Positions 13,697-61,077 of a stretch of 64,000 nucleotides of DNA are shown piece by piece. The stretch comes from Nitrospirota bacterium (GTDB lineage: Bacteria; Nitrospirota; Thermodesulfovibrionia; Thermodesulfovibrionales; UBA6898): the NCBI GenBank assembly GCA_016215155.1, contig JACRLQ010000091.1, positions 1-64,000 on the forward strand, given 5' to 3'. The notes below the pieces were generated by a model, which was given only the letters and a program-made list of their open reading frames with translations, made no database searches and was not told the DNA's origin. Positions within the stretch are counted from its first letter, which is position 1. Each line of letters begins with the position of its first letter. Position numbers and translations under genes: made by a program.

Positions 13697-13719
13697 TGTC
13701 TTGTCTTTTTTTGCCCTTC

Positions 13720-14415: not shown

Positions 14416-14454
14416 ATATCATCACCTGCGGCGGGTTGAACATTGCCGGGTGAA

Positions 14455-24533: not shown

Positions 24534-24589
24534 AATTCAAGCTGTGACACGTCACCTTCATGTCAGCGCATCTCCCGCCTTACCTTTCA

Positions 24590-25051: not shown

Positions 25052-25460
25052 TTTCCTGTACCTCCCTTTCATCCATAACAGTCTTGATGATCGTGCCGGC
25101 ATAGCCGGGATTATAGGGTTTCGTGACGAAATGCGCGGCGCCCAGGCCGAGCGCCTTCCAGAGCATTTCCTTGTGGCCTATCGAACTCACCATTATCACC
25201 TTCGCGGACCTGTCTCTCTCCATAATTCCCCGGAGGGTGTCGACTCCGTCGAGCACAGGCATCGTGATATCCAGAAGCACGAGGTCCGGGGCGAGCCTTG
25301 AGTAAAGATCCAGTGCGTCCTCTCCGTTTGTCGCCTCGCCCACCACATCTCCGCCGAGCATCTTGACGACCTTCGCGATGTTCTTTCGCGCGAACTCCGA
25401 GTCGTCGGCGATCAGGCAGGTAAAGGCCCTGCGGCATCTTTCAATGTTCTGCTTTTCCAT
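25041..25460 (-). CDS. cheY: CheY-type response regulator
   Basis: 139 residues, a single receiver domain: acidic pair Asp19/Asp20, phospho-acceptor Asp64 (VLLDITMP), switch Ser92/93 (IMVSSIG) and Lys114 (VTKP). An AGGAG lies 6 nt before the ATG. It is the expected CheA output protein of this operon, with CheX beside it for dephosphorylation. Confidence 0.9.
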   Translation of the reverse strand: MEKQNIERCRRAFTCLIADDSEFARKNIAKVVKMLGGDVVGEATNGEDALDLYSRLAPDLVLLDITMPVLDGVDTLRGIMERDRSAKVIMVSSIGHKEMLWKALGLGAAHFVTKPYNPGYAGTIIKTVMDEREVQENAS

Positions 25461-25472
25461 CTGTTTCTCCTT

Positions 25473-28549: not shown

Positions 28550-28563
28550 GGCAATGCCTCATC

Positions 28564-29445
28564 TTAAATTTTTGAGTTTCCAGCGGACATCAGCGCGGCG
28601 GCTGTCCGCTGCCTTGACGTCTGCCCCTGTCCCGGCCTTCTGTAGGCAGTGCCCCCGTCTATGTGGATGAACTCAAACCCTGTGTTCATCCCGTGAAGAC
28701 TCTCCGCGTGCCCGATAAAAAGATGCCCGCCCGGCAGCAGGCTGTCAAAGAACTTTCCCAGCAGCCGCCGCCTTTCGTCTTCGTCAAAATAAATCATTAC
28801 GTTTCTGCAGAAGATCACGTCGAGATCCCGCAGCCCGTTGTCATTTTTAAGGTTATGAAAATCAAACGAAACCATGTTTTTAAGGTCGTCCCTTACCCTG
28901 AACGAATCCCCGGTTTTATCGAAATATGCCGCGATGCGCCGGGCATCGACCGTATCGAGGACCCTGTCTGCCGGGTATTCGGCCCTCTGGGCCGTTTCGA
29001 GGGCCGTGAGACTAAGATCGGAGGCGATAATCCTCAGGTCCCACTTTGCAGGGTCACGCACCTGGTCAAGGACCAGCATCGCAAGGGAATATGGCTCCTC
29101 CCCCGTAGCGCAGCCCGCGGACCAGATCCTTATACTCCGTCCCGCGGTGTCTTTTTCCCTGAGGAGCCCCGGCAAAACAGTATTGCTGAACAGGTCGAGT
29201 TGCGGCATATTTCTGAAAAAACAGGTCTCGTTCACGGTAAGGAGGTCCAGAAATATGAGAAGCTCTCTTCTGTCCTGACCGCTGACGAGCCTGTAATATC
29301 TGTAGGGGCTTGTCTTGCCAGTGGCCTCCATCCTCTTTGAGAGCCGGTTTTCGAGGAAGTCCCTGCGGTTGTCTTTCAGGAAGATCCCGGACTCTCCGTA
29401 AATGAGGTCGCGAAAGAGCCTGAACTCCTCAGCGGACAAGGTCAT
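28564..29445 (-). CDS. cheR: Chemoreceptor methyltransferase CheR
   Basis: 293 residues. A helical N-terminal domain is followed by a SAM-binding domain (IRIWSAGCATGEEPYSLAML; DVIFCRNVMIYFDE; GGHLFIGHAESL). It methylates glutamates of the MCP encoded next to it. ATGA overlap with the MCP gene shows coupling. Confidence 0.92.
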   Translation of the reverse strand: MTLSAEEFRLFRDLIYGESGIFLKDNRRDFLENRLSKRMEATGKTSPYRYYRLVSGQDRRELLIFLDLLTVNETCFFRNMPQLDLFSNTVLPGLLREKDTAGRSIRIWSAGCATGEEPYSLAMLVLDQVRDPAKWDLRIIASDLSLTALETAQRAEYPADRVLDTVDARRIAAYFDKTGDSFRVRDDLKNMVSFDFHNLKNDNGLRDLDVIFCRNVMIYFDEDERRRLLGKFFDSLLPGGHLFIGHAESLHGMNTGFEFIHIDGGTAYRRPGQGQTSRQRTAAALMSAGNSKI

Positions 29446-31442
29446 GCCATCCCGACCTTAAGCTCGCGTTCAAACCTCGGGCCGCTGCCGCCGTTGCCGC
29501 CGTTGCCGCCCCCTGTCTTCACGGCCCTGCTCCGGGGGGCCTTCACCGTCTCGGAACCGCCAAGATCAAACCTGCCGACTATGCTCTGGAACTTCTCGGA
29601 ATTTGCCCTCAATTGTTCAGCCGAGGAGGCCAGTTCGACGGAAGCCGACGCGTTCTGCTGTATCATGCCCCTCATCTTTTCCATGGTTTTTACAATCTGC
29701 TCGGCAGCGGTCGCCTGTTCTTCGGAGGCCGACGTCACCTCGTGGGTTATCTCCTTGAGGTTTTCCGCCGCCTTGGCGATCTGAAGACTGCCGCTTCCCT
29801 GCTCATGCGTTGCGGCGCCTATCTCGGCCGCGTATCTGTCCACTTCAGTCACATTGCCCTCTATCCCCTTCAGGGCGCCGCCGACCTGCCTGCTCAGGTC
29901 AACACCCCTCTCGACGGTCTGCGTCGACTTGTCCATGAGCTTTACGGCCTCCTGGGCCTCTTTCTGGATACCCGAAATCAGGTCCGCTATTTCCTTTGTT
30001 GACTTCGCCGAACGCTCCGCGAGTTTCCTTACCTCTTCAGCCACAACCGCAAACCCCAGACCCTGCTCGCCGGCCCGCGCCGCCTCGATCGCGGCATTGA
30101 GGGCAAGGAGGTTGGTCTGTTCGGCAATGTCGTCTATCACTTCCACTATCTTTCCTATGTCCTCGGCCCTCAGGCCCAGGGCGGCAATCGTATCGGCGGC
30201 CCCAATGATCGACCTGCTTATGTCTTCAGTGCCCTTGATCGACAGGCTTACCGCCTCGATCCCCAGGTCCACCGACTTCTTCGCCTGCTGGGAAAGTTCC
30301 GCGAGCCGTTGCGCGGTCCCGGCGATCCTCTGAGTAGAGTTTGCCAACTGCTCGACGGAGGTCGAGGTCTGCATGACGGAGGCCGCCTGACTCTGGGCGC
30401 TCTTGGCGACATTCTGGATATTTGCGGACATTTCGTGCATCGTGGATGTGGTCTCTTCAACGGCGGTTGCGGAGGCCTCGCTGTTTTTTACGGACTGCTC
30501 CGAGGTTGCGGCGATCTGCACCGAGGCCGAGGATATCTCCTGGGCGCCGGTCCTCACCTCGGTGACAATGCCCCTCAACCCGGCGGTCATCTTGTAAAAC
30601 GCATTGCCGAGCACGTCCTTTTCCGATTTCGGAGTAACGTCAGTCCTCAGGTCTCCTTCGGCGATCTCTCCGGCGACCGCGGCCACGCCCCTAAGATACG
30701 AGGACATGTCCCGGAAGGCGTCGGCAAGGGCGCCGATCTCGTCGGTCCTTTTGATGTCCACTTCATATGAGAGATCGCCCTCGGCGGTCTTTCCGGCCAT
30801 ACCGGCCAATTTTTTTATGGGCCGTGATATCGAACGTGAAAGGAATATCCCGAGGCCGAGCCCGGACATGATCGAGATGAGCGAGATAGTCATGACTATG
30901 GTGTTGGCCCGCTTCCTTGCGTCGGACATGTCCTTCAGGGAGGCGTCCATCATTTTCCCCGAGAACTCCTGGAGCTTTACGGAGTTTTTCTCGATCGCTT
31001 CGGCGGTGGAATCGAATTTTTCGTTGACGGAACGGCCCTCGTCCAGCGCCCCGGTAATGAAGAACCCGGCCATCTGCTCGCCGGTGGACTTCATCTGATC
31101 GTGGCTTTTTTTGATGTCCTCAAGCGTAGACTTGATGTCCTTGTCGGAAACGACCCTGGTCAGGATGTCCTCCTGCTTATCGACCAGCACCTCGTATTTC
31201 TCCGCCTCCTGCTTTGCTTCCTGCTTGCCGGTCAATGCGAAATCCGTAAGGCTCTCCTGCTGGTGCGTGAGGAACAGGGCGAGTTTTACACTGTTGTCCC
31301 TGAACTCAGACGCCGACACAAGTTGTTTCGCGCTCTCGGCAAGGCTGTTAATGCTTAAATACGAAGTCGCGCCGACAACGACCAGAAGGACCACCAAACT
31401 CATAAATCCGGATAAAAGCTTCGTGCCTATATTAAGTCTCAT
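29442..31442 (-). CDS. Methyl-accepting chemotaxis protein
   Basis: 666 residues. TM1 (about 10-30), a periplasmic four-helix-bundle-type sensor (about 31-185), TM2 (about 186-205), HAMP, a second HAMP-like stretch, and the signalling hairpin with IDDIAEQTNLLALNAAIEAARAGE. A glycine-rich linker (GGGNGGNGGSG) precedes the C-terminus; no CheR-binding pentapeptide is seen. Being in the operon, it is probably the dedicated receptor. A secreted Cache protein is encoded just upstream. Confidence 0.92.
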   Translation of the reverse strand: MRLNIGTKLLSGFMSLVVLLVVVGATSYLSINSLAESAKQLVSASEFRDNSVKLALFLTHQQESLTDFALTGKQEAKQEAEKYEVLVDKQEDILTRVVSDKDIKSTLEDIKKSHDQMKSTGEQMAGFFITGALDEGRSVNEKFDSTAEAIEKNSVKLQEFSGKMMDASLKDMSDARKRANTIVMTISLISIMSGLGLGIFLSRSISRPIKKLAGMAGKTAEGDLSYEVDIKRTDEIGALADAFRDMSSYLRGVAAVAGEIAEGDLRTDVTPKSEKDVLGNAFYKMTAGLRGIVTEVRTGAQEISSASVQIAATSEQSVKNSEASATAVEETTSTMHEMSANIQNVAKSAQSQAASVMQTSTSVEQLANSTQRIAGTAQRLAELSQQAKKSVDLGIEAVSLSIKGTEDISRSIIGAADTIAALGLRAEDIGKIVEVIDDIAEQTNLLALNAAIEAARAGEQGLGFAVVAEEVRKLAERSAKSTKEIADLISGIQKEAQEAVKLMDKSTQTVERGVDLSRQVGGALKGIEGNVTEVDRYAAEIGAATHEQGSGSLQIAKAAENLKEITHEVTSASEEQATAAEQIVKTMEKMRGMIQQNASASVELASSAEQLRANSEKFQSIVGRFDLGGSETVKAPRSRAVKTGGGNGGNGGSGPRFERELKVGMA

Positions 31443-31522
31443 TTCCGCTCTCCTTATCTGTTTTGCCGCCCCGCCTGCCCGCTCTTTCGCGCCCGGGCCT
31501 TCCGCCGGCGGGGCTGGATGAT

Positions 31523-31999
31523 TTAATGTTTGTATACCCCGCTGCCTATAATCAGGTCCTCAAATTTTTCAATATAGGCGGTTTTATGCTCTATCTTTTT
31601 AGTCAACGGGTCCGTAAATTTGTAGTCCTGCCACCCTTTCCCCTTTGTCCTGGCGATCTCGACCCTCTCCTTGACAAAGTATTTGCCGTCAGGATCTTTC
31701 ATTCCGATAAGGTCATTGCCGACCATCTTCGGATTTTGCCCGTGCGCAAGACACCTGCCGTTTAAATCATAGACAAAAATATACAGGTCCCCCTGCACAA
31801 ACCGGCCATTTTTATTGCCGAATTCCGCAAACGACTTTTCCCTGCCGTTGGCTTTTATATGTTCTATCGCCTTTTTGACCAGCGCCTCCGCATCTGTCGT
31901 CGTGCCGCGCTCGGCGGCCATACATGTTATTGCCGGAATAGTCATCGCCATACATAACAAAATACCCGCCGACATCACTGTTTTTCTGAACTTATTCAT
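31523..31999 (-). CDS. Secreted single Cache-domain protein
   Basis: 158 residues with a signal peptide (about 1-28) and one sCache_2-like domain (LVKKAIEHIKANG, FVYDLNGRCLAHGQNPKMVG, DPLTKKIEHKTAYIEKFEDLIIGSGVY). Such domains normally form the sensor part of a receptor or kinase; here it has no membrane anchor. AAGGAGG precedes the start. Its place between cheW and the MCP suggests it hands a ligand signal to that receptor, which is an inference. Confidence 0.85.
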   Translation of the reverse strand: MNKFRKTVMSAGILLCMAMTIPAITCMAAERGTTTDAEALVKKAIEHIKANGREKSFAEFGNKNGRFVQGDLYIFVYDLNGRCLAHGQNPKMVGNDLIGMKDPDGKYFVKERVEIARTKGKGWQDYKFTDPLTKKIEHKTAYIEKFEDLIIGSGVYKH

Positions 32000-32025
32000 C
32001 TACTGCCTCCTTGAGATCAATTTTT

Positions 32026-32511
32026 TTATGCCGCCCTGTTTTCGGTCTCTTTAAAGACGACCTCCTCAACTTTTATCAGCTCTTCGATCGCCAGTATTTT
32101 TTTCAGATCAAGGAGGATTATCAGCCTCTCGTCCACCTTCGCCACCCCGATGATATATTCCACGCCTATGGCCGATACCATCTCCGGAGGTCCTTCCACC
32201 GCCTCCGGCCGGACCTTCAGAACTTCACTGACGGAATCCACATTAAGTCCTATCATGTTGCCGCCGGATTCAGTGATAAGCACCCTGGCCGCCTTCGACC
32301 TCTGCGCGGATAAAAGTCTGAGGCGTTTCCCCAGGTTGACGACCGCGACGATGCGTCCCCTCAGGTTCATGACCCCTTCCAGAAAAAAAGGTGCGTCAGG
32401 CACTGAGGTGATCTCCTGGAAACGCACTATTTCCCTGACTGCGTCGATACCGACACCAAAGAATTCCCGTCCGATTTTAAAGACCACCAATTGAAGGTCC
32501 TTAGCCATCAT
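32026..32511 (-). CDS. cheW: Chemotaxis coupling protein CheW
   Basis: About 161 residues from ATG 32511 with GGAGG 5 nt upstream; ATG 32508 is also possible. CheW fold: LVVFKIGREFFGVGIDAVREIVRF, GVMNLRGRIVAVVNLGKRL, MIGLNVDSVSEVLKV. It links the MCP to CheA. Its start lies inside the end of the preceding receiver gene. Confidence 0.92.
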   Translation of the reverse strand: MMAKDLQLVVFKIGREFFGVGIDAVREIVRFQEITSVPDAPFFLEGVMNLRGRIVAVVNLGKRLRLLSAQRSKAARVLITESGGNMIGLNVDSVSEVLKVRPEAVEGPPEMVSAIGVEYIIGVAKVDERLIILLDLKKILAIEELIKVEEVVFKETENRAA

Positions 32512-32944
32512 GTGATCCTCCTTTTGCAATATTTGACGTTCCTGCCTCAATCAGGGCCCTGAGGTTATGAGGCGCGACAGGCTTCTCGAAATAGTAATCC
32601 GCACCGAGAACGTATGCCCTTTCCATGACTTCATCGCTTCCATACCCAGTCAAAACAATCTTCAGTGTCGAGGGATGGTCCCGCTTAATTCGCTCCAGTA
32701 TCTCAAAACCCTCTTCCGCCAGGACACCTGTCAGCCTTATATCCAGTATGGCCGCATGGAACGAGTGATCGTCCAGCAGCTCCATCGCCTTCTCAAGGGT
32801 CTCGGCTATTTCAACATGCATTTTTTCTCCCTCGAAGATTTTTTTGAGGGCCAGCAGGAAGGCGCTCTCATCGTCAACGACCAGGATGTTCTTCCTGACG
32901 CCGGTGTCCTGTTCGGATTGGGTCGTCTTGCCGGATTCATTCAC
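32501..32944 (-). CDS. Receiver-domain protein opening the chemosensory operon
   Basis: A single receiver domain (ILVVDDESAFLLALKKIF; phospho-acceptor Asp in AAILDIRLTG; FEKPVAP). The frame is open up to 32974, but a sigma-54 promoter covers 32956-32971 with predicted start near 32945, so GTG 32944 is the best start (about 147 residues). It could act as a phosphate sink or link to the neighbouring two-component system. Confidence 0.85.
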   Translation of the reverse strand: MNESGKTTQSEQDTGVRKNILVVDDESAFLLALKKIFEGEKMHVEIAETLEKAMELLDDHSFHAAILDIRLTGVLAEEGFEILERIKRDHPSTLKIVLTGYGSDEVMERAYVLGADYYFEKPVAPHNLRALIEAGTSNIAKGGSHDG

Positions 32945-32955
32945 AGCCTTAATTG

Positions 32956-32971
32956 AGCAAAGAGAATGCCA
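32956..32971 (-). promoter_or_regulatory. Sigma-54 promoter of the chemosensory operon
   Basis: Minus strand TGGCAT-TCTCT-TTGCT. The invariant GG and GC are in exact register with the TGGCAC-N5-TTGCA consensus. Two activator-like sites lie about 65-113 bp upstream, and a sigma-54 activator gene is next door. Confidence 0.75.
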
Positions 32972-33035
32972 CAATCAGGAAACCGGTAACTGTTTGATTT
33001 ATTGATATTTTTTAAAACAGAGGAAGGTCAAAAGG

Positions 33036-33069
33036 GTCTCATTTTTGAGACCGGTCTCAGAAATGAGAC
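33036..33069. promoter_or_regulatory. Tandem enhancer sites for a sigma-54 activator
   Basis: Two 16-bp inverted repeats, GTCTCATTTTTGAGAC (33036-33051) and GTCTCAGAAATGAGAC (33054-33069), 18 bp centre to centre. The spacing and distance from the promoter are typical of upstream activator sites. The likely binder is the Fis-type HTH of the activator at 33239-34558. Confidence 0.7.
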
Positions 33070-33096
33070 TTGGGAGCCGGAGGAATAACGGAGAAA

Positions 33097-33180
33097 CCCC
33101 GCACCCCTCCCCGGAAAGGATTTTGAAAACAGCAAACTACGATACTGACCTGGTCTCCTCCCGGGAGGGGCAGTGGGGCG
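33097..33180. repeat. Imperfect inverted repeat downstream of the activator gene
   Basis: CCCCGCACCCCTCCCCGG (33097-33114) pairs imperfectly with 33161-33180 (CCGGGAGGGG..GTGGGG). It resembles the CCCTC-type repeats elsewhere in the window. Confidence 0.5.
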
Positions 33181-33238
33181 GTCTGTTTTTTACAGATATT
33201 GCGAGCAGCTGAACGGATGCCCGCGGGCGCGAAAAGTT

Positions 33239-34558
33239 TCAGTCGGGCCCGCGGAGTTTTTTCAACTTTCGATAGATAGTTGCCCTGGACATCCCCAGGA
33301 CTTTCGCGGCCTTCGCGATGTCGCCCCCTGACCTTTCTATGACCGTCTTTATATATCCTTCGATCAGGCCGTCGAGGTCCCGCGAAATACCCTGATCCAG
33401 GACGTCAGGTAAGAGGTCAAGCTCCGAGAAATGCTCCGGCCCGACCGGTCCCCCGCGCGCCAGAAGCAAAGCCCTCTCCAGGGCATTCTTCAATTCCCGC
33501 ACATTCCCGGGCCACCCGTAGCTCCCGAGCATACGCATGACCTCGGGAGACAAAACGGTCACGGGCGACCCAAGCACGCCAAGGAGGTGCCCTACGAGCG
33601 CCGGCAGGTCTTCCAGCCTTTCCCGAAGCGGAGGGATAAGTATAGGGAAAGACCCGATGCGGAAATAAAGGTCTTTCCGGAATACACCCCTCATCGCCTC
33701 ATCCCGCAGATTCTTGCCGGTCGCGCATATAGGGCGAAAGTCGCTGAAACGTACATTGACATCTCCAAGCCGCCGGTAGGATTTCTCTTCTATCACCTTC
33801 AGAAACTGGGCCTGGACCGTCACGTCCATATCCCCTATTTCGTCCAGAAACAGCGTCCCGCCGTCCGACATATCCATAAGACCCTGCTTGTCGATCACCG
33901 CGGAAGTAAACGCCCCCTTCGCGTGCCCAAAGAGCTCGCTTGCAAGAAGTTCCCCCCTGAGCGCGGAACAGTTTACCTCGACAAACGGCGCGGAGGCCCT
34001 GGGGCTGCGCTCATGTATCCATTTTGCAAGTACTCCCTTGCCGACGCCGGTTTCACCCATAAGCAGCACCGGAGCATCGGTTTCCGAAGTAACGGCCGCC
34101 ATCTCGATCACCTTCTTCATCCCGCGGCTTTCGCCCCAAAATGGCTGGAATTTCATCGACAGCCGCTGCTGATAGTCGTCCTTCCTTCTGAGAGCGCCGA
34201 GTTCCAGGCTTTTCCTCAGGATTATTTCGAGGTTTGAAAGACTTACAGGTTTTATAAGAAAGTTATCGGCGCCCCGGCGCATGGCCTCAACTGCCGTCGG
34301 CACGTCGCCGCCGGCGGTAATTACGATAATGGCTGCCGATGGATAGACCCTGCGCAGGTCGTCGATCCAGTCTATGCCGTTTCCGTCGGGCAACCTCATA
34401 TCGAGAAGGACCGCGTCAAACCGCTGGGAGGCCGTCGCCTGCCGGGCTTCTTCCAACGAGGAAACACCCTTGACGTTATAGCCCGCCTTTGAGAGATATT
34501 TGGAAAATCCAAAAATTACGGCCGGTTCGTCGTCAACGAGGAGGACATTCTGTTTCAT
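33239..34558 (-). CDS. Sigma-54-dependent response regulator (NtrC family)
   Basis: 439 residues: receiver (VDDEPAVIFGFSK; LLDMRLPDGNG), AAA+ domain with Walker A GETGVGKG and Walker B TLFLDEIGD, and a Fis-type HTH at the end (GGDIAKAAKVLGMSRATIYRKLKKL). The sigma-54 contact loop reads GAFTSA instead of GAFTGA, a substitution worth noting. ATGA overlap with the kinase gene makes them a pair. It likely acts at 33036-33069 on the chemosensory operon. Confidence 0.9.
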   Translation of the reverse strand: MKQNVLLVDDEPAVIFGFSKYLSKAGYNVKGVSSLEEARQATASQRFDAVLLDMRLPDGNGIDWIDDLRRVYPSAAIIVITAGGDVPTAVEAMRRGADNFLIKPVSLSNLEIILRKSLELGALRRKDDYQQRLSMKFQPFWGESRGMKKVIEMAAVTSETDAPVLLMGETGVGKGVLAKWIHERSPRASAPFVEVNCSALRGELLASELFGHAKGAFTSAVIDKQGLMDMSDGGTLFLDEIGDMDVTVQAQFLKVIEEKSYRRLGDVNVRFSDFRPICATGKNLRDEAMRGVFRKDLYFRIGSFPILIPPLRERLEDLPALVGHLLGVLGSPVTVLSPEVMRMLGSYGWPGNVRELKNALERALLLARGGPVGPEHFSELDLLPDVLDQGISRDLDGLIEGYIKTVIERSGGDIAKAAKVLGMSRATIYRKLKKLRGPD

Positions 34559-48778: not shown

Positions 48779-50004
48779 CCTATAATACCCAGTGACCTGC
48801 CGACCTTCTCGAATGCGGTCAGGACCTTGTCCATATGTTCGTCAGTATGCGTGGCCATATAGCTTGTCCTTATCAGCGCCTTGCCCGTGGCAACCGCCGG
48901 ACTGACGGCCACATTGGCAAAAACACCCTCCTCCTGCAGCATCATGGCCATTGTAAAGGCCTTGAGGTCATCACCGACCAGGATCGGTATTATCGGGGTT
49001 TGTGTCGGACCTATCTCAAAACCGAGGGCCTTGAAGCCTTTATGTATTTTCCAGGTGTTCGACCAGAGTTTTTTTATGCGCTCCGGTTCGTTGTCGATTA
49101 TATCGAGGGCCGCGTCAACCGCCGCAACGGAGGCGGGGGGAGGACTGGCGCTGAATATCAGCGCGCGCGCGAAATGCTTTATATAATGAATGACCCTCTC
49201 TTGTCCGGCGATAAACCCGCCTATCGACGCAAGCGATTTGCTGTAGGTGCCCATTATAAGGTCAACCTCTTTTTCAAGACCGAAATGCTCGGCTGTCCCC
49301 CGCCCCGTGCGGCCAAGGACCCCGATGCCGTGCGCGTCGTCAACCATGACCCTGGCGTTATACCTGGAGGCCAGGGAGACTACGTCCGGAAGGTTTACTA
49401 TATCGCCCTCCATGCTGAATACGCCGTCAACCACAATGAGTTTCTTACGCTGCCTGTTTTCCTTCAATATCCGTTCAAGGTCGGTCATGTCGTTATGCCT
49501 GAACTTGATTACGTCGGCATAGGAGAGCCGGCAGCCGTCTATGATGCTTGCGTGGTCCATCTTGTCGATAATTATTACGTCGTCTTTGCCGGTAATCGCG
49601 GAGATCACGCCGAGATTAACCTGAAAGCCCGTCGAAAAAACCAGGGCCGCCTCCTTGCGGATAAAGCTTGCCAGTTTTTCCTCCAGTTTTACGTGCAGGT
49701 CCAGTGTCCCGTTGAGGAACCTCGACCCGGCGCATCCCGCCCCATACTTATCGATAGCCCCTATCGCCCTTTTTTTGACCAGGGGATGGTTTGTGAGTCC
49801 CAGATAGTTGTTCGACCCGACCATGATCATCTTTTTGCCGCCGATCACCACCTCCGGGTCCTGGGCGGACTCGATGATCCTGAAATATGGGTACAGGCCG
49901 GCATGGGCCAGTTCCTTTGCCTTGGTGAACCTGTCGCATTTTTCAAAAAGATCCGAGGCTTTATCTATATCCATTGATGAGTTTTGTACCAGTCTGCTGT
50001 CCAT
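48775..50004 (-). CDS. spt: Serine palmitoyltransferase-like alpha-oxoamine synthase
   Basis: 409 residues from ATG 50004 with AAGGA 5 nt upstream. PLP enzyme: [43 protein letters not shown], and the PLP lysine in [13 protein letters not shown]. The C-terminal [20 protein letters not shown] then TSYMATHT resembles bacterial serine palmitoyltransferases more than KBL or BioF. It would condense serine with an acyl thioester to 3-ketosphinganine. Flanking genes fit the next two ceramide steps; no biotin genes are present. Confidence 0.82.
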
Positions 50005-50933
50005 TTTATTCCTTCTCTCAGAGATGTTTTCGCCATAAACCCGAGTTCGCTTTCAGCCAGCCTGGTCGAGCATGTCCAGTTGGTATAGCCGAAGTCGATG
50101 AGCCGGTCACGGTTAATTATACCTTTTTTGTCAAATTTTTGGCCTATAAATCCCAGCACCGGGAATAATAAGCGGGGAATTCTTATCCTGACCGCTTTCA
50201 CCCCCAGCGCATCCGAAATCTCACCGGCTATATCCTCGTTCGAAAAAACCGCGGGGTATGATAAAAAAAACAGTCTTCCCTCGCCGCGGTCACTTTCGGC
50301 CGCCAATATTATCCCCCGGACAAGATCGTCCACATAAAGCATTGAATACAGGGATTTCCCCCAGTAAGGGAAGGCCCCCCTTGAAATCATTTTGAACATG
50401 ACAAGGAAGTCCTTATCTCTTGGGCCAAAGACGGCAGGAGGCCGTATGATCGTCGAGGGGACACGGCCCGTGAAGTCTTTGACCGCTTCTTCGCCCTTCC
50501 GCTTACTCTTGCCGTATGCTGAAACAGGCCTGGGAGGGGAATTTTCGTCGACCGGGCCATCTCCGAATACCGGACCAGCCGCGGCCAGGCTGCTTATATA
50601 TACAAAACGTCTGAGCCCGGCTGCATTGTCCGCCACGACCTTCAGAAGTCTTGCCGTGCATCCGGCATTCGCGGCGTAAAAATCAGCCTCATTGACCGCC
50701 TTGGTGAGCCCGGCAACATGGAAGATATAATCGAACCCCCTGAACCGGTCGGCGCAGGACTCAATATCCATGTCCATGAGGTCGCCGTAGATATACTCAG
50801 GGTTCAGGCGCTCGATCCACCCGAGATCTGAATTTTTTCGCACCAGACAGGTCAGAGCATATCCCTTTTTGACCAGTGCCTCGGCAAGATGGCTTCCGAT
50901 AAAACCTGTGGCGCCTGTAACCAGAGCCTTCAT
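49965..50933 (-). CDS. NAD-dependent epimerase/dehydratase, candidate 3-ketosphinganine reductase CerR
   Basis: 322 residues from ATG 50933 ([21 protein letters not shown]); two ATGs lie just upstream without better signals. Extended SDR: Rossmann GATGFIGS, and the catalytic YxxxK in [12 protein letters not shown]. It overlaps spt by 40 bp, as the first gene of the operon. In Caulobacter a protein of this class (CerR) reduces 3-ketosphinganine; the role here is inferred from the three-gene match. Confidence 0.78.
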
Positions 50934-51155
50934 AGCGTGCATATATTGTTGAATAAACATACGAAAGGAGTCAACGTAACTTACGGCAAAGGCAAGGCGT
51001 GCGCGGCCGCATTAGCCTCCGCCCTGGGGGAGTGGTCTTACTCAATGCTCCTGTTGCGTCAAAAAACTCACATGGGTGATACCCCTTTAAGCCGGCTCGG
51101 GGAGACAAATAGACATTTTCATTTATAACATTGGGTTATCATATCGGGTCACGGG
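50934..51155. other. Non-coding stretch upstream of the sigma-54 promoter
   Basis: Between cerR and the riboswitch promoter I see no gene. It must hold the cerR promoter, which I cannot place, and would hold any activator sites for the sigma-54 promoter at 51156; no clear inverted repeat was found. Confidence 0.5.
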
Positions 51156-51171
51156 TGGCACAAAACATGCA
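51156..51171 (+). promoter_or_regulatory. Sigma-54 promoter upstream of the riboswitch
   Basis: TGGCAC-AAAAC-ATGCA: perfect -24 element and GC at the exact -12 position. Predicted start near 51182, right at the 5' end of the riboswitch. Confidence 0.7.
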
Positions 51172-51183
51172 GGTTTAAGAGCA

Positions 51184-51275
51184 AGAACCACCGAAGGGGC
51201 AAACTATGGGTGACCATAGGACGCAAAGCTACCTGTCCTGACAGACCCGGGATAGAGGGGCCATCGAAGTGGCTG
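51184..51275 (+). promoter_or_regulatory. Cyclic di-GMP-I (GEMM-I) riboswitch
   Basis: The core GGGGCAAAC, then a stem CTATGG-GTGA-CCATAG capped by a GNRA tetraloop, then GGACGCAAAGCTACC, is the hallmark of GEMM-I aptamers. The closing stem pairs CCAC.CGA (about 51188) with TCG..GTGG (about 51265-51272). The base before GCAAAC is G, as in c-di-GMP-binding types, though cGAMP specificity cannot be excluded. A terminator follows, so c-di-GMP likely decides read-through into the receiver gene. Confidence 0.85.
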
Positions 51276-51296
51276 TATATGCTCGTCCAGATACAG

Positions 51297-51326
51297 GCCG
51301 ACCCTTCGGGGCCGGCTTTTGTTTTT
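51297..51326 (+). terminator. Riboswitch expression-platform terminator
   Basis: GCCGACCC-TTCG-GGGCCGGC hairpin (one mismatch, UUCG loop) followed by TTTTGTTTTT, 22 nt after the aptamer and before the receiver gene. Confidence 0.85.
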
Positions 51327-51361
51327 CCAGGGGTCTCACAACCGGACGGAGGTGACTGACT

Positions 51362-51772
51362 GTGCATATGTTTGATGGTGGAATACAACGAGGACCCGAT
51401 ATTTTACTGCGCGGAAAAGAGACCGTGCTGGTCGTGGACGATTTCGAAGATGTGAGAAGTTTTTTAGACACCGCGCTGACCATGTTCGGCTATAACGTAA
51501 TCTGCGCCGTGGACGGGATGGACGGACTCGACAAATACATCGAGAATAAAGACAGGATTCATGCCGTAATGCTCGACGTGATCATGCCGAAATTAAACGG
51601 CATAGAGCTTTTCAGGGAAATAAAAAAACTTGAACCGGACACGAAGGTCCTTTTCATGAGCGGCTATAACGAGATTTTCCACATGAACAATCTGGGTGAA
51701 AATAAATGCATCTCCAAACCGTTTAATATCAAAACGCTTTTAAAAGAACTCAGGGAAATCCTGGATAGTTAG
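51362..51772 (+). CDS. Receiver-domain protein under riboswitch control
   Basis: 136 residues starting at GTG 51362, with GGAGG 9 nt upstream. A single receiver domain (TVLVVDDFEDVRSFLDTAL; phospho-acceptor Asp in AVMLDVIMPKLNG; KCISKPFN). No output domain, so it acts by binding a partner. Transcription appears to need sigma-54 and to be gated by c-di-GMP. It is convergent with another stand-alone receiver gene. Confidence 0.88.
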   Translation: MHMFDGGIQRGPDILLRGKETVLVVDDFEDVRSFLDTALTMFGYNVICAVDGMDGLDKYIENKDRIHAVMLDVIMPKLNGIELFREIKKLEPDTKVLFMSGYNEIFHMNNLGENKCISKPFNIKTLLKELREILDS

Positions 51773-51820: not shown

Positions 51821-52174
51821 TCAGCGGGCGAGGCAGGTTTCGAGGGTCCGGTTGAGTTCGTCAAGTTTGAAAGGTTTTTTCAGTATGCAGATGCCGTTTG
51901 CCATGAATTCGCTTTCGAGTTCAGAGGTGATGTAGGCGGAACAGACGATGACCTTAGGCCTCACCTCAAGACCGGCGAGTTTCTTTATAAGCTCCGTCCC
52001 GTTGGCCTCGGGCATACGCAGGTCCACGAAAAGAAGGTCGAACTTGTCCGTCGCGAGTTTCTCCGTGGCGTCACTTACGCTTGACGACGTAATGACCTCA
52101 TGACCTCCCTTTTTCAGTGCCCGGTCAAGAAACCATCTTACGAGTTGTTCATCATCGACGACCAGTATTTTCAT
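51821..52174 (-). CDS. Stand-alone receiver-domain protein
   Basis: 117 residues, one receiver domain (MKILVVDDEQLVRWFLDRAL; Asp in LFVDLRMPEANG; LKKPFKLDELN). It follows the sigma-54 activator gene by 49 bp on the same strand and may be co-transcribed. Its N-terminus resembles that of the neighbouring activator (VDDEKLLRWSL), suggesting duplication or exchange of phosphate from the same kinase. Confidence 0.87.
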   Translation of the reverse strand: MKILVVDDEQLVRWFLDRALKKGGHEVITSSSVSDATEKLATDKFDLLFVDLRMPEANGTELIKKLAGLEVRPKVIVCSAYITSELESEFMANGICILKKPFKLDELNRTLETCLAR

Positions 52175-52223: not shown

Positions 52224-53609
52224 TCAAGTCTTTTCGAGAAGTCCGAATTTCTGCATTCTGTATCTCAGCGCGTCCCTGGTCAGGGTCAACAGCTTGGCGG
52301 CCTTTGTCTGGTTCCATTTGGTCTGCTCAAGCGCCTGCCTGATAAGTTCCTTCTCGACCTCTTCTATGTCGATCCCGCCGGGAGTGACGCTGACCTGGGA
52401 ACTCGACAGGCTCTTTGACTTGAAATCAAACGAAAGCAGTTCTATAGGCAGATGCTCGGGCAGGATATATTCCTCGTTTTCCAGGATCATCGCCCTTTCG
52501 ATTACGTTTTTGAGCTCCCGGATATTGCCCGGCCACTGATAATCAAGGAAGGCCTTTTCCGTCTCTTTCGAGATACCCCTGACATCCTTTTTAAACTCCC
52601 GGTTGAAACCCGAGATGAAGTGTGCCGCAAGCAGAAGAATATCCTGTTTCCGTTCCCTCAAGGGAGGGAGTATAATGGGGATGACCTTGAGCCTGTAATA
52701 GAGGTCCTCCCTGAAATTCCCCTTCCTGACTTCCTCGGCGATCACCTTGTTGGTCGCCGCCACTATCCTCAGGTCGACGCTTATGTCCTTCGTTCCGCCG
52801 ATCCTCTTGAACGTCTTGTTCTCGATCACCTTAAGTAGCTTGGACTGCGTGCTGAGCTTCATGTCCGCTATTTCATCCAGAAAGATCGTCCCCCCGTCGC
52901 TCATTTCGAACAGCCCTTTTTTCTGGGCCTTTGCGTCGGTAAAGGCGCCTTTTTCATGCCCGAAGAGCTCACTTTCTATTAGTGTCTCAGGGAGCGCGGT
53001 ACAGTTTATGTCCATAAACGGTTTGTCAAACCGGCCGCTTTCGTAGTGGATCACTTTGGCCACGAGGTCTTTGCCCGTGCCGCTTTCGCCCTGCAGGAGT
53101 ATCGTCGAGGCGTCGCTCCGGGAGACCTTCCTTATGAGGTCCATGATCTTGACCATCTCCGGGGACCGTCCGATGACGTTGCTGAACCCGTATTTACCCG
53201 TCATCTGTGACCTGAACTGGGAGACCTCTTTTCTGAGAGACGCCGTCTCTATGGCCTTCGTGATGAGTATCTTGAGCTTTTCCATATTGAAGGGCTTTTC
53301 GACGAAATCGTACGCGCCCATCTTGATCGTCTTTACGGCCGTCTGGACGTCGCCGAAGGCGGTGACCATTATCACTATCGCGTCCCTGTTTTCCTGCTTG
53401 ATCCTCTCGAGGACGTTTATCCCCGAGATATCGGGAAGGTGGACATCGAGCAGCGTTATGTCGGGCTGTTCTTCAAGATACTTATCGAGTCCTTCACCAC
53501 CCGTTTCAGCGGTAACGACCGAGAACCCCTCTTTTGAGAGGTTCTGCTGCAAGGACCAGCGAAGAAGCTTCTCATCATCGACTACAAGGATCTTGCCTTT
53601 TTCCAACAT
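52224..53609 (-). CDS. Sigma-54-dependent response regulator (AtoC/ZraR type)
   Basis: 461 residues: receiver (ILVVDDEKLLRWSL; TLLDVHLPDISG), AAA+ domain with Walker A GESGTGKD, GAFTDA sigma-54 loop, Walker B TIFLDEIAD, and a Fis-type HTH (QTKAAKLLTLTRDALRYRMQKFGL). It starts at ATG overlapping the kinase stop (TAATG). Likely activates a sigma-54 promoter in response to the haem-motif kinase next to it. Confidence 0.92.
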   Translation of the reverse strand: MLEKGKILVVDDEKLLRWSLQQNLSKEGFSVVTAETGGEGLDKYLEEQPDITLLDVHLPDISGINVLERIKQENRDAIVIMVTAFGDVQTAVKTIKMGAYDFVEKPFNMEKLKILITKAIETASLRKEVSQFRSQMTGKYGFSNVIGRSPEMVKIMDLIRKVSRSDASTILLQGESGTGKDLVAKVIHYESGRFDKPFMDINCTALPETLIESELFGHEKGAFTDAKAQKKGLFEMSDGGTIFLDEIADMKLSTQSKLLKVIENKTFKRIGGTKDISVDLRIVAATNKVIAEEVRKGNFREDLYYRLKVIPIILPPLRERKQDILLLAAHFISGFNREFKKDVRGISKETEKAFLDYQWPGNIRELKNVIERAMILENEEYILPEHLPIELLSFDFKSKSLSSSQVSVTPGGIDIEEVEKELIRQALEQTKWNQTKAAKLLTLTRDALRYRMQKFGLLEKT

Positions 53610-55057
53610 TACCTCGTCTTGGGAATCTTTATATAATACGTAGTCCCTCTGCCGGGACTGCTGCTGACGGATATCGAGCCTCCGTGACCTTCTATTATGT
53701 TACAGGCAATGGCAAGTCCGAGTCCACTGCCGGAATTCTTCGTGGAAAAAAAAGGCTTGAAGATGTTCTTCGTCTGTTCTTCCGACATCCCGGCGCCGGT
53801 GTCGGAGATGGCCATCTCAACACCGCCCCCGTCGGACCCGTCCTTAAGGGTGATGTCCAGACGCCCCCCCTTCTTCATGGACTGCAGACTGAAGAGCGCG
53901 ATTGTTGAAAAAGCTTTTTCGAGCTGATCAGGGTCGGCCAATATTTCATCTGTTTTATCCGATGTGACCGAAATTATCACGCCGGAATTGGCGGCCTGCG
54001 GCCCCATCGCCCCGGAGACTTTCTCGATGACGGCATTGATGTCCACGCTGATCAGATTCATCTCGGGAGGCCTCGCAAAAACAAGGAGGTCCTTTACTGA
54101 CCGGTCAAGCCGCTCTATCTCCTCAAGTATCTCCTTTGAAATTTCCTTTCGCGGGCTGTCCTCGGGAAAATCCTCCGCCAGCACCTGGAGCGCGCCGCTT
54201 ATTCCGGCCAGCGGATTTTTGATCTCATGGGCAACGGCGGTGGCGAGTTCTCCGAGTGAGGCCATTTTCTCAAGTCCGAGGTCTCTTTCGGCGTGGTACC
54301 TGCCGATCTCTTCCGCCTTGCTTCCGATATCACTTTTTATTGTATGGAGATATCCGGCCAGCACGCCTATCTCGTCGTTTCTCGCGGCCAGGGCGCTCAC
54401 TTCCGGCCTGCCTCCCGCCATAGTCCCGGCTGAATCGATAAGCTCTGAAATAGGCTTTCCGACGAGGAAATATCCCAGCGCCGAAACAGAGATAATCAGG
54501 GCCAGTAACATAAGGACGGAATTTCTCATGATCACGGAGGTAGCGTTGAGCAGCCTCCTGTCGGTATCCACACTCGAAAACTCGACATCGAGTATGCCTC
54601 TTATATGGTCGAGCCTTCCATGGCATTTCTGACACAAAGGGTCATTTTTTATAAGCACTATTTTTGAAAAGATCTTTTTCCCGCCCTCGGCATGCGTAAA
54701 TGCGGACACATCTTTTCCCATGTTGTAGATGGAAATCGCCTTTTCAGGCATGGGCCGTCCTATCTCGCCGGGGACGGTCGAACTGAGTATGATGCCCTCC
54801 TGAGTGACTATACGGATGGCGGAGATGTCTTCCGCGATGAGGTTCTCTATGAACTTCTGGAATTCCTTTTTGCCTCTGCCTTCGAGCATGATGGACTTGA
54901 GGCCGTTGTTGATCACTTCGGTCAGCAGTTCGACCTTGCCCTGTCTGGTCGTATTGATCTGGTAATTATGGAACCGGAAGTCCTGCCAGGAGAAAAACCC
55001 TACAATAACCAGCGACACGAGAGTGAAATAGAGGGTAAATTTTTTATGCAGGCCCAT
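53609..55057 (-). CDS. Sensor histidine kinase with periplasmic CxxCH haem motif
   Basis: 482 residues. TM1 (about 8-27), a periplasmic domain (about 28-175) containing CQKCHG, a c-type haem-binding CxxCH, TM2 (about 176-200), HAMP, HisKA (ELATAVAHEIKNPLAGISGAL) and HATPase_c (GTGAGMSEEQTKNIFKPFFSTKNSGSGLGLAI-type region). A single haem suggests redox, oxygen or NO sensing. It sits downstream of the cytochrome c maturation genes resB-ccsA that would attach the haem. Confidence 0.9.
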   Translation of the reverse strand: MGLHKKFTLYFTLVSLVIVGFFSWQDFRFHNYQINTTRQGKVELLTEVINNGLKSIMLEGRGKKEFQKFIENLIAEDISAIRIVTQEGIILSSTVPGEIGRPMPEKAISIYNMGKDVSAFTHAEGGKKIFSKIVLIKNDPLCQKCHGRLDHIRGILDVEFSSVDTDRRLLNATSVIMRNSVLMLLALIISVSALGYFLVGKPISELIDSAGTMAGGRPEVSALAARNDEIGVLAGYLHTIKSDIGSKAEEIGRYHAERDLGLEKMASLGELATAVAHEIKNPLAGISGALQVLAEDFPEDSPRKEISKEILEEIERLDRSVKDLLVFARPPEMNLISVDINAVIEKVSGAMGPQAANSGVIISVTSDKTDEILADPDQLEKAFSTIALFSLQSMKKGGRLDITLKDGSDGGGVEMAISDTGAGMSEEQTKNIFKPFFSTKNSGSGLGLAIACNIIEGHGGSISVSSSPGRGTTYYIKIPKTR

Positions 55058-55148: not shown

Positions 55149-56234
55149 CTATTCCGCGCCGTAGCTGTGGAGTCCCGACAGAAGCAGGTTAACTCCAAGA
55201 TAGGTGAATATAACCGCCAGGAACCCCAAAACAGCGACCATCGCCACCTTCCTGCCCTTCCATCCCCTCATCAGCCTTCCATGCAGATAAAAGGCATAAA
55301 AAAACCAGGTGATAAGCGACCAGGTCTCCTTCGGGTCCCACGTCCAGTACTTGCCCCAGGCCTGATCGGCCCAGATGGCCCCGAAAATGAGGCCGCCCAG
55401 GGTGAAGATCGGGAACCCCATCGCTATGCTCTTATAGGTTATTTCATCGAGCATATCGGCTGAGATCTCAACCCCTGAGATGATTTTTTTCATTATCCCG
55501 CCGAACCTCCAGATTACGAAGAACAAGGCCGCGGAAAAGGCAAAACTTAACACCGTGACAAAACCGGACCCGCTGCGGAACGTCGCCTTGAAGAGATAAC
55601 TCTTGATCAGTTCCTCCTGGCCCTTGACGGACATCTTGAAAGTCAGATAATCAATCCCCATTGCGGCCAGCACGATTATGAACACGCTCAGCATCGCGGT
55701 CCAGAATATGTACGCGGCATCCGTCCTGTCGTCGGTCGTTACGATAAGATACATCAACCCCGTACTGAAAGATACGGCAAACATGGCATATGCGATGAAG
55801 CTCATCATGACATGGGCCAGCAGCCAGTTGGACTGGAGCGCCGGCACAAGGGGCTGAATACCCTTGGACATGCCGGAAATATCGATAAATGCGAGGACCA
55901 ATCCGGCAATAGGGGTGATGAACGCCCCGAAGGACCGGTTTTTGTACCTGAATTCAATGACGAGATATGCAAGGATAAGACACCACACAAAAAAGACGAG
56001 TGATTCATAGAGGTTCGTAAGGGGCACCCCCCTCAGAAGTCCCATATTGCCGAGTTCGGCAAATTCCTTCCACCGGATGAGCAGCGCGGCGGTCTGGGAC
56101 AGCAGGCCCGCGATGGTGAGCGCGGTGGCCGTTACACCTACGGTTTTGTTTTTAAAGGCGAGATAGGCTATGTAGAGGATCATCGCCAGAATGTACGCCA
56201 GTGAGGACAATCCAAAAAATACGGAGCTGTTCAT
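55149..56234 (-). CDS. ccsA: Cytochrome c maturation protein CcsA/ResC (system II)
   Basis: 361 residues with about eight membrane helices and the WWD haem-handling motif WGKYWTWDPKETWSLITWF, plus conserved histidines in helices (HVMMSFIAYAMF; FYLHGRLMRGWKG). With ResB it exports haem and ligates it to apocytochromes. ATGA overlap with resB. System II is usual in Nitrospirota, delta- and epsilon-proteobacteria and Gram-positives. Confidence 0.92.
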   Translation of the reverse strand: MNSSVFFGLSSLAYILAMILYIAYLAFKNKTVGVTATALTIAGLLSQTAALLIRWKEFAELGNMGLLRGVPLTNLYESLVFFVWCLILAYLVIEFRYKNRSFGAFITPIAGLVLAFIDISGMSKGIQPLVPALQSNWLLAHVMMSFIAYAMFAVSFSTGLMYLIVTTDDRTDAAYIFWTAMLSVFIIVLAAMGIDYLTFKMSVKGQEELIKSYLFKATFRSGSGFVTVLSFAFSAALFFVIWRFGGIMKKIISGVEISADMLDEITYKSIAMGFPIFTLGGLIFGAIWADQAWGKYWTWDPKETWSLITWFFYAFYLHGRLMRGWKGRKVAMVAVLGFLAVIFTYLGVNLLLSGLHSYGAE

Positions 56235-57676
56235 TTACGTTCCCCCTTTGGGCCTGAACTTAGAATGCCGACAAGTTTTTCCACCCTGCCTTCGAATGCC
56301 GCCCTGTTTCTGTGGGCCGAGGCGCCTATGACGACCCTTGTGCCGCCCTTTTCTTCGGAGACATTGACCCATATCCGTTTATGGCTCATGAAAAAAGACA
56401 TGAAAAGCCCGATCGACATGAAAATGCATCCAAGATAGACTATGAAAACCCCTGGGTCTTTTCTGACCTGCATGCCTGTATATTCAACCCCCCAGTAATC
56501 TACCAGTTCGACCCTGTCGCCGCTTGGAAGCTGCCATGTCTGCGGGTATCTTTTGAGTATCCAGCCGGTATAGTTTCCGTCCTTCAGCCCTGAAAAGGCC
56601 ACCTGGACCGCCGGATTTTTCAACTGCTCATCGTACGAGACATATCTTCCGGTCGCATCGATCGAAATCGCCGGGCTGAAATCAAGGATACGGCCTGTTA
56701 TCTGTGTGCCGGGAATAAGGAAGGAATCTCCGACCTTCGCCTCTATATTCTGGGCCTTTCCGTCGGCGGAGACCGCCTTCAGGATAATGATGCCTTTCCC
56801 CTGGCTGCCGGGGATTATGCCGAAACTCGACTGATAGAAAGTGACCCCCTCATAGGTAAGAGGATCGTTGACGACGATGGACTTCTGAAGCACTTTTTTC
56901 CCGTTTTTAAAGACCGACAGCCAGCTTTTATACGCCTTGGGCATGTCGCTCTGTCCGTAGTATGAAACCTCGAAATTATCGCACCGGATCTCGAACCCCA
57001 GAGGCAGTTCCACGCCCCTGTCTTTGTAGGCGACCGAGGACTGCTCTCCTTCCGGAAGATTAAGAAACGCGTTAAACCCGAAGAAAAGGCCTATTATGGC
57101 CCCCGCCAGAATTACGAGGATGCTCAGGTGAGTAATATAGACGCCGAGCCTGGAATAGTTGCCTTTTTGGGCGTAGAACTGAACACCATGGGAGACAGCC
57201 GCTTCAGCGGGGCTGAACCCTATCTCCTTAAGCCCCGCGCGAACGCTTTCCTTAATGGTCTCCGCGGACCCCTTAAGCGTTATCGACCTTTTGACCGAGA
57301 CCTTTTCAAGAAGCTCCGGAGGCATCGCCTGTATCGGTTCCCTGGCGAGTTTCCAGACCCTCGGGAGCCTGTCGATGGAGCAGATTATGAGATTGGCGGC
57401 AAACAAAAGAAGGAGAGTGACGAACCACCACGCGTGATACATGTCCATAAAACCCAGCTGAGCGAGAAACCCGTAAAGGCCTTGGGCGGTATCGTGCCCG
57501 ACCCTGAGCATCTTCATGATGATCTTGATATTCTTTTCAGGCTCGGCATTCTGTTCAAGGACTGTCCCGACCATGGACGTGGCGGCGATTATCGAAAAAA
57601 TCACCACCGCCAGTTTCACGGAGGAGAACAGGTCCCAGACCCTGTCTGTTATATTCTTTTTCTGCTTATTTTCCAT
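56231..57676 (-). CDS. resB: Cytochrome c maturation protein ResB (system II)
   Basis: 481 residues. Three N-terminal membrane helices (about 16-36, 75-100, 175-200), a large periplasmic domain (GVTFYQSSFGIIPG), a final helix (VYLGCIFMSIGLFMSFFMSHKRIWV) and a short cytoplasmic tail. The first helix region LFSSVKLAVVIFSIIAATSMVGT is the ResB signature. It works with CcsA. First gene of the resB-ccsA-kinase-regulator run. Confidence 0.92.
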   Translation of the reverse strand: MENKQKKNITDRVWDLFSSVKLAVVIFSIIAATSMVGTVLEQNAEPEKNIKIIMKMLRVGHDTAQGLYGFLAQLGFMDMYHAWWFVTLLLLFAANLIICSIDRLPRVWKLAREPIQAMPPELLEKVSVKRSITLKGSAETIKESVRAGLKEIGFSPAEAAVSHGVQFYAQKGNYSRLGVYITHLSILVILAGAIIGLFFGFNAFLNLPEGEQSSVAYKDRGVELPLGFEIRCDNFEVSYYGQSDMPKAYKSWLSVFKNGKKVLQKSIVVNDPLTYEGVTFYQSSFGIIPGSQGKGIIILKAVSADGKAQNIEAKVGDSFLIPGTQITGRILDFSPAISIDATGRYVSYDEQLKNPAVQVAFSGLKDGNYTGWILKRYPQTWQLPSGDRVELVDYWGVEYTGMQVRKDPGVFIVYLGCIFMSIGLFMSFFMSHKRIWVNVSEEKGGTRVVIGASAHRNRAAFEGRVEKLVGILSSGPKGERK

Positions 57677-59949: not shown

Positions 59950-61077
59950 ATGAGGATTAATTTCGCGGACACCGGCCTGCTTGCGGGCCTGTTAAACAGA
60001 AATAAAAAAAACATGACCCGGATCAATGACATTGATCTCAATGCGGTCCTTCGGGAGGTCCTGACCTGGGCCAACAGGCTGGTGCCGTCGGAATCAGGCT
60101 CGCTCCTTCTGGACGACCCGGACCTGAAATGGGATGACAGAAAGAAGGAGGGCAGGCTTTATTTCGCAGCCTGTTTCGGCAGGGGCTCGTCCCGCATCGT
60201 AAATACATATCTTGGATCAAACTCCGGGATCGCCGGGAAGACCTACACAAGCGGAAAACCTCATATAAGCAGGGATGCGCCCAGTGATACCAGGTATAAC
60301 CCTTCGGTCGCCGACAGGATACGATATAAGACCAGGTCGATCATCTGCGCCCCGGTCGTCATTGAAGGTTCGACGATAGGCGTCATAGAGCTTATAAACC
60401 GCAGGGAACGGGCGAAGTATACGCGACAAGAGCTTTCCCTGCTCATGATATTCGCGGGCTATACCGCGACACTTATCCATAACGCCCTGATAGCCAGAAG
60501 TTTTGAGGAGCTCTCAAAGAGGGACACTCTTACAGGGCTTTTTAACGACCGGTATTTTTTTCAAAGGCTGGAGGAGGAGGTCGAAAAGGCAACGGTCCTA
60601 GAATCTGATATATCGATGATATTTTTCGACCTCGACCACTTCAAGGAGGTCAACGATACGCACGGCCACCTCGCGGGCAGTTCAGTCCTTAAGGAAATAG
60701 GAGATATAATGAGGGAGATATTCCACGGGACTTCCGCGGTATGCTCACGGTACGGAGGTGACGAATACATTGTCATAATGCCCGGCATGGCCATGGAGGA
60801 GGCTGCGACTTACGCCGAACTATTAAGGTCCAGCATCCGGAAAAACATATTTCTCAGGGAGAAAGTCCCGTGGCTTGAACGGCCCCTCAATATAAAGGAC
60901 GTTATTACCTGCAGTATCGGAGTGGCATCGTTTAAAAAGAATGTTGCGCGCGGAAAAAGTATAAGACAGATGGCCGACTCCCTGGTCAAAGAGGCCGATA
61001 AGGCGATGTATACGGCAAAGGAAAACGGCCGTGACCGGATCCTCCTCGCCCGGGGGCCCCGCCGGGCCGTAAGATAG
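59950..61077 (+). CDS. GAF-GGDEF diguanylate cyclase
   Basis: 375 residues. A GAF domain (about 25-180, IICAPVVIEGSTIGVIELINRRE) and a GGDEF domain (about 188-360) with FFDLDHFKEVNDTHGHLAGS and the active-site motif GGDEY, a functional variant. No RxxD inhibitory site is evident. It should make c-di-GMP, the ligand of the riboswitch at 51184. No membrane helix, so the GAF senses an internal signal. Confidence 0.9.
   Translation: MRINFADTGLLAGLLNRNKKNMTRINDIDLNAVLREVLTWANRLVPSESGSLLLDDPDLKWDDRKKEGRLYFAACFGRGSSRIVNTYLGSNSGIAGKTYTSGKPHISRDAPSDTRYNPSVADRIRYKTRSIICAPVVIEGSTIGVIELINRRERAKYTRQELSLLMIFAGYTATLIHNALIARSFEELSKRDTLTGLFNDRYFFQRLEEEVEKATVLESDISMIFFDLDHFKEVNDTHGHLAGSSVLKEIGDIMREIFHGTSAVCSRYGGDEYIVIMPGMAMEEAATYAELLRSSIRKNIFLREKVPWLERPLNIKDVITCSIGVASFKKNVARGKSIRQMADSLVKEADKAMYTAKENGRDRILLARGPRRAVR

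Follow-up and report, generated by a model that had tools for sequence, protein, structure and literature searches.

Both c-di-GMP and sigma-54 regulate surface life globally, and protein activators such as FleQ are known points of contact between them; a sigma-54 promoter requires an ATP-driven enhancer-binding protein for the start of transcription. On the RNA side, the closest described systems are riboswitches built around the c-di-GMP-I (GEMM-I) aptamer (RF01051). In Clostridioides difficile, Cd1 is a transcriptional OFF switch, where aptamer and terminator can form side by side, each in competition with an antiterminator (PMC9262584). GEMM-I ON switches exist as well, e.g., the cGAMP-responsive GEMM-Ib riboswitch of Geobacter pilM, where the terminator uses an aptamer strand (PMC9262584). 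As for the strand involved, the published GEMM-I terminator platforms consulted use the 3' strand of the aptamer (PMC9262584). In the attack phase of Bdellovibrio, the merRNA carries a c-di-GMP-I aptamer on a transcript linked to a programme of regulation specific to that phase (PMC3627812). In the open-access literature searched, no sigma-54 promoter feeding a GEMM riboswitch is described.

The window, i.e., the whole 64 kb stretch of DNA analysed here, carries a candidate for such an arrangement, where a sigma-54 type promoter element, a GEMM-I aptamer, an intrinsic terminator and the gene of a stand-alone receiver protein follow one another on the forward strand. We consider it probable that this transcript is started by sigma-54 and switched off by c-di-GMP ahead of the receiver gene. 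This reading predicts promoter use, ligand and switching direction from elements computed here, namely the aptamer and its helix P1, the terminator, the covariation of the antiterminator, the sigma-54 element with its class-wide enrichment and the insertion of the whole into an operon.

Promoter element upstream of the aptamer

The −24/−12 element TGGCACAAAACATGCA (TGGCACaaaacATGCA) is located at 51156–51171 (+) and was recognised from a pattern match, its position, a class-wide survey and the presence of RpoN in the genome, sigma-54 not being covered by the simple promoter scan. It exhibits GG at −24 and GC at −12, 10 nt apart, and, compared with the sigma-54 consensus context TGGCAC-N5-TTGC (PMC12316311), shows one deviation, i.e., a −12 box reading ATGCA and not TTGCA (A for T before TGC), which counts against a sigma-54 start. 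The −12 GC (51169–51170) stands 17 nt upstream of the first base of the aptamer and the start predicted from the element falls at about 51182 (51181–51183), i.e., some 6 nt before helix P1. Over the 64 kb and both strands, TGGCACAAAACATGCA is one of two matches to TGGCAYNNNNNWTGCW without any mismatch; with up to one mismatch, 7 matches were found in the whole window vs 6.2 expected. As the loose pattern occurs at chance frequency, the informative part is the position beside the aptamer.

This position was considered across the class, using 126 RF01051 aptamers of the same family (27 genomes) and 86 more (84 without duplicates) that a subclass model retrieved across the class, giving 210 distinct aptamers altogether. 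In the 300 nt upstream of these, strong −24/−12 sites number 24 on the transcript strand vs 3 on the reverse strand, and 19 of the 24 lie no more than 98 nt from the aptamer (p ~1e-5, or ~5e-5 with homologous pairs collapsed). A strong site within 50 nt is found for about 13 of the 210 aptamers (6%). Respective to the 126 aptamers of the family, the element of the window obtains the top score with a first scoring scheme and, with a slightly broader one, ties for second-best within 50 nt.

Most other aptamers in the family have promoters of the TTGACA/TATAAT-like type, and most subclass relatives have TTGACA/TAAAAT promoters adjoining the aptamer. Along with the imperfect −12 box, this speaks for an accidental −24/−12 match, the transcript originating from an upstream sigma-70 type promoter and the riboswitch alone being regulatory. 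A weak sigma-70-like pair is indeed present (GAGACA-16-TATAAC, 51102–51129), which counts against a sigma-54 start. However, no sigma-70 pair within 60 nt scores above 7/12, and TGGCACAAAACATGCA combines correct sigma-54 spacing with membership of a type of site strongly enriched class-wide; an accidental match hence appears unlikely, and sigma-54 would be the factor using the site at 51156–51171. The proposal of the preliminary description, namely a sigma-54 promoter with a predicted start at the 5' end of the aptamer, is supported by the mismatch-free element, its distance to P1 and the enrichment. Besides RpoN, the genome has 28 PF00158 matches. Upstream of the promoter, neither a clear activator binding site nor an inverted repeat of 7 or more was found, and a 9-nt direct repeat occurs at 51024 and 51096.

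Aptamer, terminator and antiterminator of the leader

The aptamer spans 51188–51268 (+) and constitutes the only Rfam match to pass its gathering threshold across the 64 kb of the window. The covariance-model search, which the preliminary description had proposed as a check, returned 53.1 bits for RF01051 vs a gathering cut-off of 35 (with an E of 1.5e-7 over the whole window), i.e., not a low score, and the GNRA tetraloop described there is the GUGA loop of P2. With the subclass model R1, the aptamer scores 92.5 bits, the window sequence itself belonging to the training set of that model. The subclass is of the form CCAYCGAA...GUCGAAGUGG with a covarying P1, formed in the window by the 5' strand CCAC (51188–51191) and the 3' strand GUGG (51269–51272), both supported by covariation and the latter also by a constrained fold. 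Among 14 subclass members, P1 exhibits the compensatory pairs CCAC/GUGG, CCAU/AUGG, CGC/GCG, and UCAU/AUGA, P2 and P3 being likewise supported; 95.1% of the cells are paired vs 33–52% in slid controls, and 11 of 22 pairs show changes on both sides, so that all three helices covary.

Downstream, the intrinsic terminator claimed with a UUCG loop was found as the hairpin GCCGACCCUUCGGGGCCGGC (51297–51316, +), i.e., GCCG-a-CCC-UUCG-GGG-c-CGGC, followed by the U tract UUUUGUUUUU (51317–51326), the hairpin being backed by sequence, fold and equivalent hairpins in relatives; it is missed by a simple terminator scan because of the A/C mismatch in its stem. In between, a linker (51274–51295) can itself form a hairpin (CUGUAU/AUACAG) once the aptamer is formed, as indicated by a constrained fold. 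The putative antiterminator joins CCGAAGGG (51191–51198), which is part of P1, of J1/2 and of the ligand pocket, with CCCUUCGG (51302–51309), which comprises the 5' arm and loop of the terminator, over 8 complementary bp.

As CCC-UUCG-GGG is a common form of terminator, this complementarity could be partly accidental, and shuffling at the single locus gives p ~0.013–0.035. Subclass relatives provide a broader view. The equivalent pairing of CGAAAAGGUAAG with CUUACCUUUUCG reaches 12 bp in genome G015 and 8–11 bp in many other members; the 5' strand of the window pairs over 5 bp at most with the downstream regions of nearly all other members, vs 8 bp with its own, and the 5' strands of other members pair over 5–6 bp with the terminator of the window. 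Considering 47 subclass members, the variable positions of CGAA[XY]GG in the aptamer and of C[yx]TTCG in the terminator combine as AA-TT (20 cases), AG-CT (8), AG-TT with a G-U pair (4), and GG-CC (1), AA-CT being absent. The table of AA/AG by TT/CT gives a Fisher p of 4.7e-5, an optimistic value as for all such covariation p-values since the sequences are related. The single GG-CC case is the window, where aptamer and terminator loop have changed together.

Folding the whole leader is uninformative by itself (z −1.4), and constrained as well as growing-transcript folds were needed. In the latter, the ligand-free minimum is the antiterminator for transcripts ending from 51309 to 51318 (−47.7 to −51.1 kcal/mol); at 51318, the antiterminator is at −51.1 and the aptamer with terminator at −45.1 kcal/mol, a gap that, going by these models, ligand binding could pay. 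The same antiterminator forms in 28 of 29 relatives before the 3' arm of the terminator is made and still in 24 of 29 after it, in a set chosen by loop motif and thus partly selected. Constrained folds and covariation further indicate that aptamer and terminator are compatible and that the antiterminator excludes the aptamer. Because the antiterminator strand includes G51198, ligand binding and antitermination are mutually exclusive, and both relations together make the layout that of an OFF switch. A 3'-strand antiterminator (CGAAG:CUUCG) was also considered and rejected, being weaker with 5 bp vs 8 bp for the 5'-strand one.

With the very same parts, c-di-GMP could conversely prevent termination, the receiver being made at high c-di-GMP. 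Such an ON switch would have a precedent in pilM, and, in its end-point fold, the full leader does pair the 3' side of the aptamer with the terminator region. Aptamer and terminator are nonetheless without overlap, can coexist and both exclude the antiterminator, which renders an ON switch quite unlikely. The sign of the switch had been left open by the preliminary description; the antiterminator, as modelled, points to OFF with c-di-GMP.

Under a sigma-54 start with an OFF switch, an active enhancer-binding protein would allow transcription to begin some 6 nt upstream of the aptamer. In the absence of ligand, CCGAAGGG would pair with CCCUUCGG, the terminator would be blocked and the receiver gene transcribed; with c-di-GMP bound, the 5' strand of the aptamer would be locked, the terminator would form and transcription would stop. 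The receiver would then be made only with the activator on and c-di-GMP low. The two-signal integration put forward earlier, i.e., an activator for the start and c-di-GMP for elongation, is best supported by this anatomy together with the comparative evidence.

Respective to the ligand, the base equivalent to G20 of Vc2 is G51198 (model position 11). This position is a selectivity factor and not a hard filter (PMC9262584). From its identity, c-di-GMP would be favoured over cGAMP and is the ligand we infer for the leader. Binding of 3',3'-cGAMP instead draws on some GEMM-I relatives preferring that molecule and on the many A-type selectivity variants in this family, but G51198 is as in c-di-GMP binders and makes it very unlikely here; likewise, the idea that all GEMM-I aptamers considered are cGAMP sensors was rejected, the selectivity position being G in the window aptamer. 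The A-type aptamers of the family (AATAGCAAAC, AAGAGCAAAC; e.g., L031, L078, L083, and L029) carry at this position the A found in cGAMP-sensing GEMM-Ib, from which cGAMP signalling in the lineage of the window is possible. The genome also harbours a third GEMM-like aptamer of 45.4 bits (L003 1501–1582 (−), i.e., G000:C42:3874–3955 (−)), with a G21-C swap (AAGCCA...GCGGAAAG) and a directly adjoining terminator overlapping its 3' end, which suggests a switch logic opposite to that in the window.

Receiver gene and interrupted operon

The gene behind the leader (51362–51772, +) is an intact open reading frame encoding 136 aa from a GTG start, with an alternative ATG at 51368, and is preceded by the Shine-Dalgarno-like GGAGGTGA (51348–51355). 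A match to PF00072 (E 2.3e-20) covers residues 22–130, i.e., nearly the whole length, in agreement with the stand-alone receiver described initially. The phosphorylation residues DD, D, S/T, and K can be read from the sequence in the motifs VVDD, MLDV, MSGY, and SKPF, and relatives in the PDB are of the CheY/Spo0F type. In a protein search at family level, no stand-alone ortholog was found, nor any with its own riboswitch; the best matches in the family are ~40–53% identical and mostly correspond to receiver domains in much longer (hybrid-type) frames. The nearest named relatives are from Nitrospirae and deltaproteobacterial MAGs.

In 11 relatives, the genes for a kinase, an NtrC-type activator, a small receiver, an SDR, a KBL-like aminotransferase and a GNAT-like protein are contiguous and collinear, with ~20–130 bp between small receiver and SDR. 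In the window, this gap amounts to roughly 860 bp and is filled by the promoter, leader and receiver gene on the strand opposite to the operon, so that the cassette is an insertion into a conserved two-component operon. It is convergent with the genes for (i) the small receiver (51821–52174, −), a second stand-alone receiver with 62–76% identity in relatives, where it is contiguous with the NtrC and SDR genes, (ii) the NtrC-type sigma-54 activator (52224–53609, −), of REC-AAA-HTH_8 organisation (PF00158, 1e-67; 76–83% identity in relatives), and (iii) a membrane histidine kinase (53609–55057, −), identified by domain search with CxxCH (CQKCH) in its sensor part, which is likely the partner of the NtrC-type protein. 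The SDR-family gene (49965–50960, −), recognised by domain search and from relatives, belongs to the downstream half of the interrupted operon. Of the candidate activators for the promoter, the NtrC-type protein is the nearest, a link that stays tentative because the operon is also conserved where the cassette is absent; its GAFTDA motif, where GAFTGA is usual, counts against the proposed activation, as does the occurrence of the whole arrangement in one genome only against the reading at large. In the simplest idea, the receiver might perhaps serve the CxxCH-containing kinase as phosphate sink or relay. The CQKCH of this kinase is a haem-binding motif and its gene adjoins ccsA/resB-like cytochrome c maturation genes (55149–57676).

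Given its orientation, the cassette could mainly serve as antisense regulator, with sigma-54 read-through into the convergent receiver-NtrC-kinase operon, and a simple scan found no + strand terminator downstream of the receiver stop (51772) and ahead of the following gene. The intact receiver frame with its good Shine-Dalgarno and phosphorylation residues rather suggests selection for the protein; antisense effects on the operon are possible, but as the main function they have a slim chance at best. The least probable reading is that of a recently inserted, non-functional relic, for which the single genome and an aptamer score below many relatives can be invoked, against a frame, start signals and promoter all intact and an aptamer and terminator loop altered jointly (GG with CC).

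Regarding wider context, the GGDEF cyclase and HD-GYP protein reported from the window are indeed encoded there, i.e., a GGDEF protein at 59950–61077 and an HD-GYP motif in 23475–24533, which is weak context since the genome has 25 GGDEF matches. The region 23475–34558 (−) comprises the HD-GYP receiver protein, a CheB/CheA/CheR/MCP-like cluster and a second sigma-54 activator (GAFTSA). The palindrome GGTTTGGAACCYGC occurs several times at 13581–14590, both inside and beside a RAYT-like transposase gene (13720–14415, −), and a second RAYT-like gene is located at 4086–4715 (−).

Recurrence in the class and comparison with known systems

A sigma-54 element and an aptamer of the same subclass also precede genes for a GAF-GGDEF protein in G088 (element TGGCGCGATAATTGCA), a PhnD-like binding protein in G202:C403 and a PAS-GGDEF protein in G194:C158; in G198, G202:C388, and G027/G193, the element comes with aptamers matching RF03167 before secreted proteins. 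Sigma-54 initiation followed by GEMM-I elongation control would form a recurrent design of the class, read out by a previously undescribed platform where the 5', ligand-contacting aptamer strand is the antiterminator strand and has co-evolved with the terminator loop, a view towards which we lean slightly.

Signalling genes are rare behind GEMM-I in the class, namely those for a 143-aa receiver (G022), a receiver-PilZ-like protein (G002), a REC-GAF-HD-GYP protein (G203) and four GGDEF proteins. At loci L206/L226 (G088) and L241 (G194), sigma-54 type promoter, GEMM-I and terminator stand before diguanylate cyclase genes, which predicts a negative feedback loop on c-di-GMP. At L243 (G203:C117), a same-subclass GEMM-I and a terminator precede the REC-GAF-HD-GYP gene, the contig ending at the promoter. 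Leader and gene sequences are identical in L313 (G193:C21) and L227/L178 (G027:C40), from two different families, reflecting either MAG cross-contamination or very recent transfer.

In the window, both signals would meet on one transcript, at initiation and elongation, as an AND-NOT gate testable with a single reporter. More broadly, the 5'-strand antiterminator offers a covariation-backed rule by which, for dozens of GEMM-I switches of little-studied bacteria, the sign can be predicted, and the cassette-free operon of relatives a natural before/after comparison of the insertion of a module beside a two-component system.

With RF01051 at large, the leader shares the P1/P2/P3 architecture, the GNRA loop and the conserved pocket, but differs by a shortened P3, a sigma-54 type promoter and a J1/2 of GGGG (consensus AAaG) matching the terminator loop. 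The layout is that of Cd1, with compatible aptamer and terminator and a competing antiterminator; however, the antiterminator of Cd1 uses the aptamer-stabilising strand on the 3' side along with strands T and H, whereas that of the window uses the 5' aptamer strand, and flagellar genes are controlled in Cd1 instead of a receiver. The pilM riboswitch has a homologous aptamer and likewise a terminator-type platform, but there an aptamer strand lies within the terminator, making both mutually exclusive (ON), which is not so in the window. The merRNA resembles it by its c-di-GMP-I aptamer and programme-bound transcript, yet is without downstream gene and without sigma-54. As for genes under sigma-54 and enhancer-binding proteins, the −24/−12 spacing is the same and RpoN and many activators are encoded, but the transcript of the window faces a second, RNA-based decision. 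All parts are thus known; their pairing and the 5'-strand antiterminator look new, as a recurrent combination and not as a new class.
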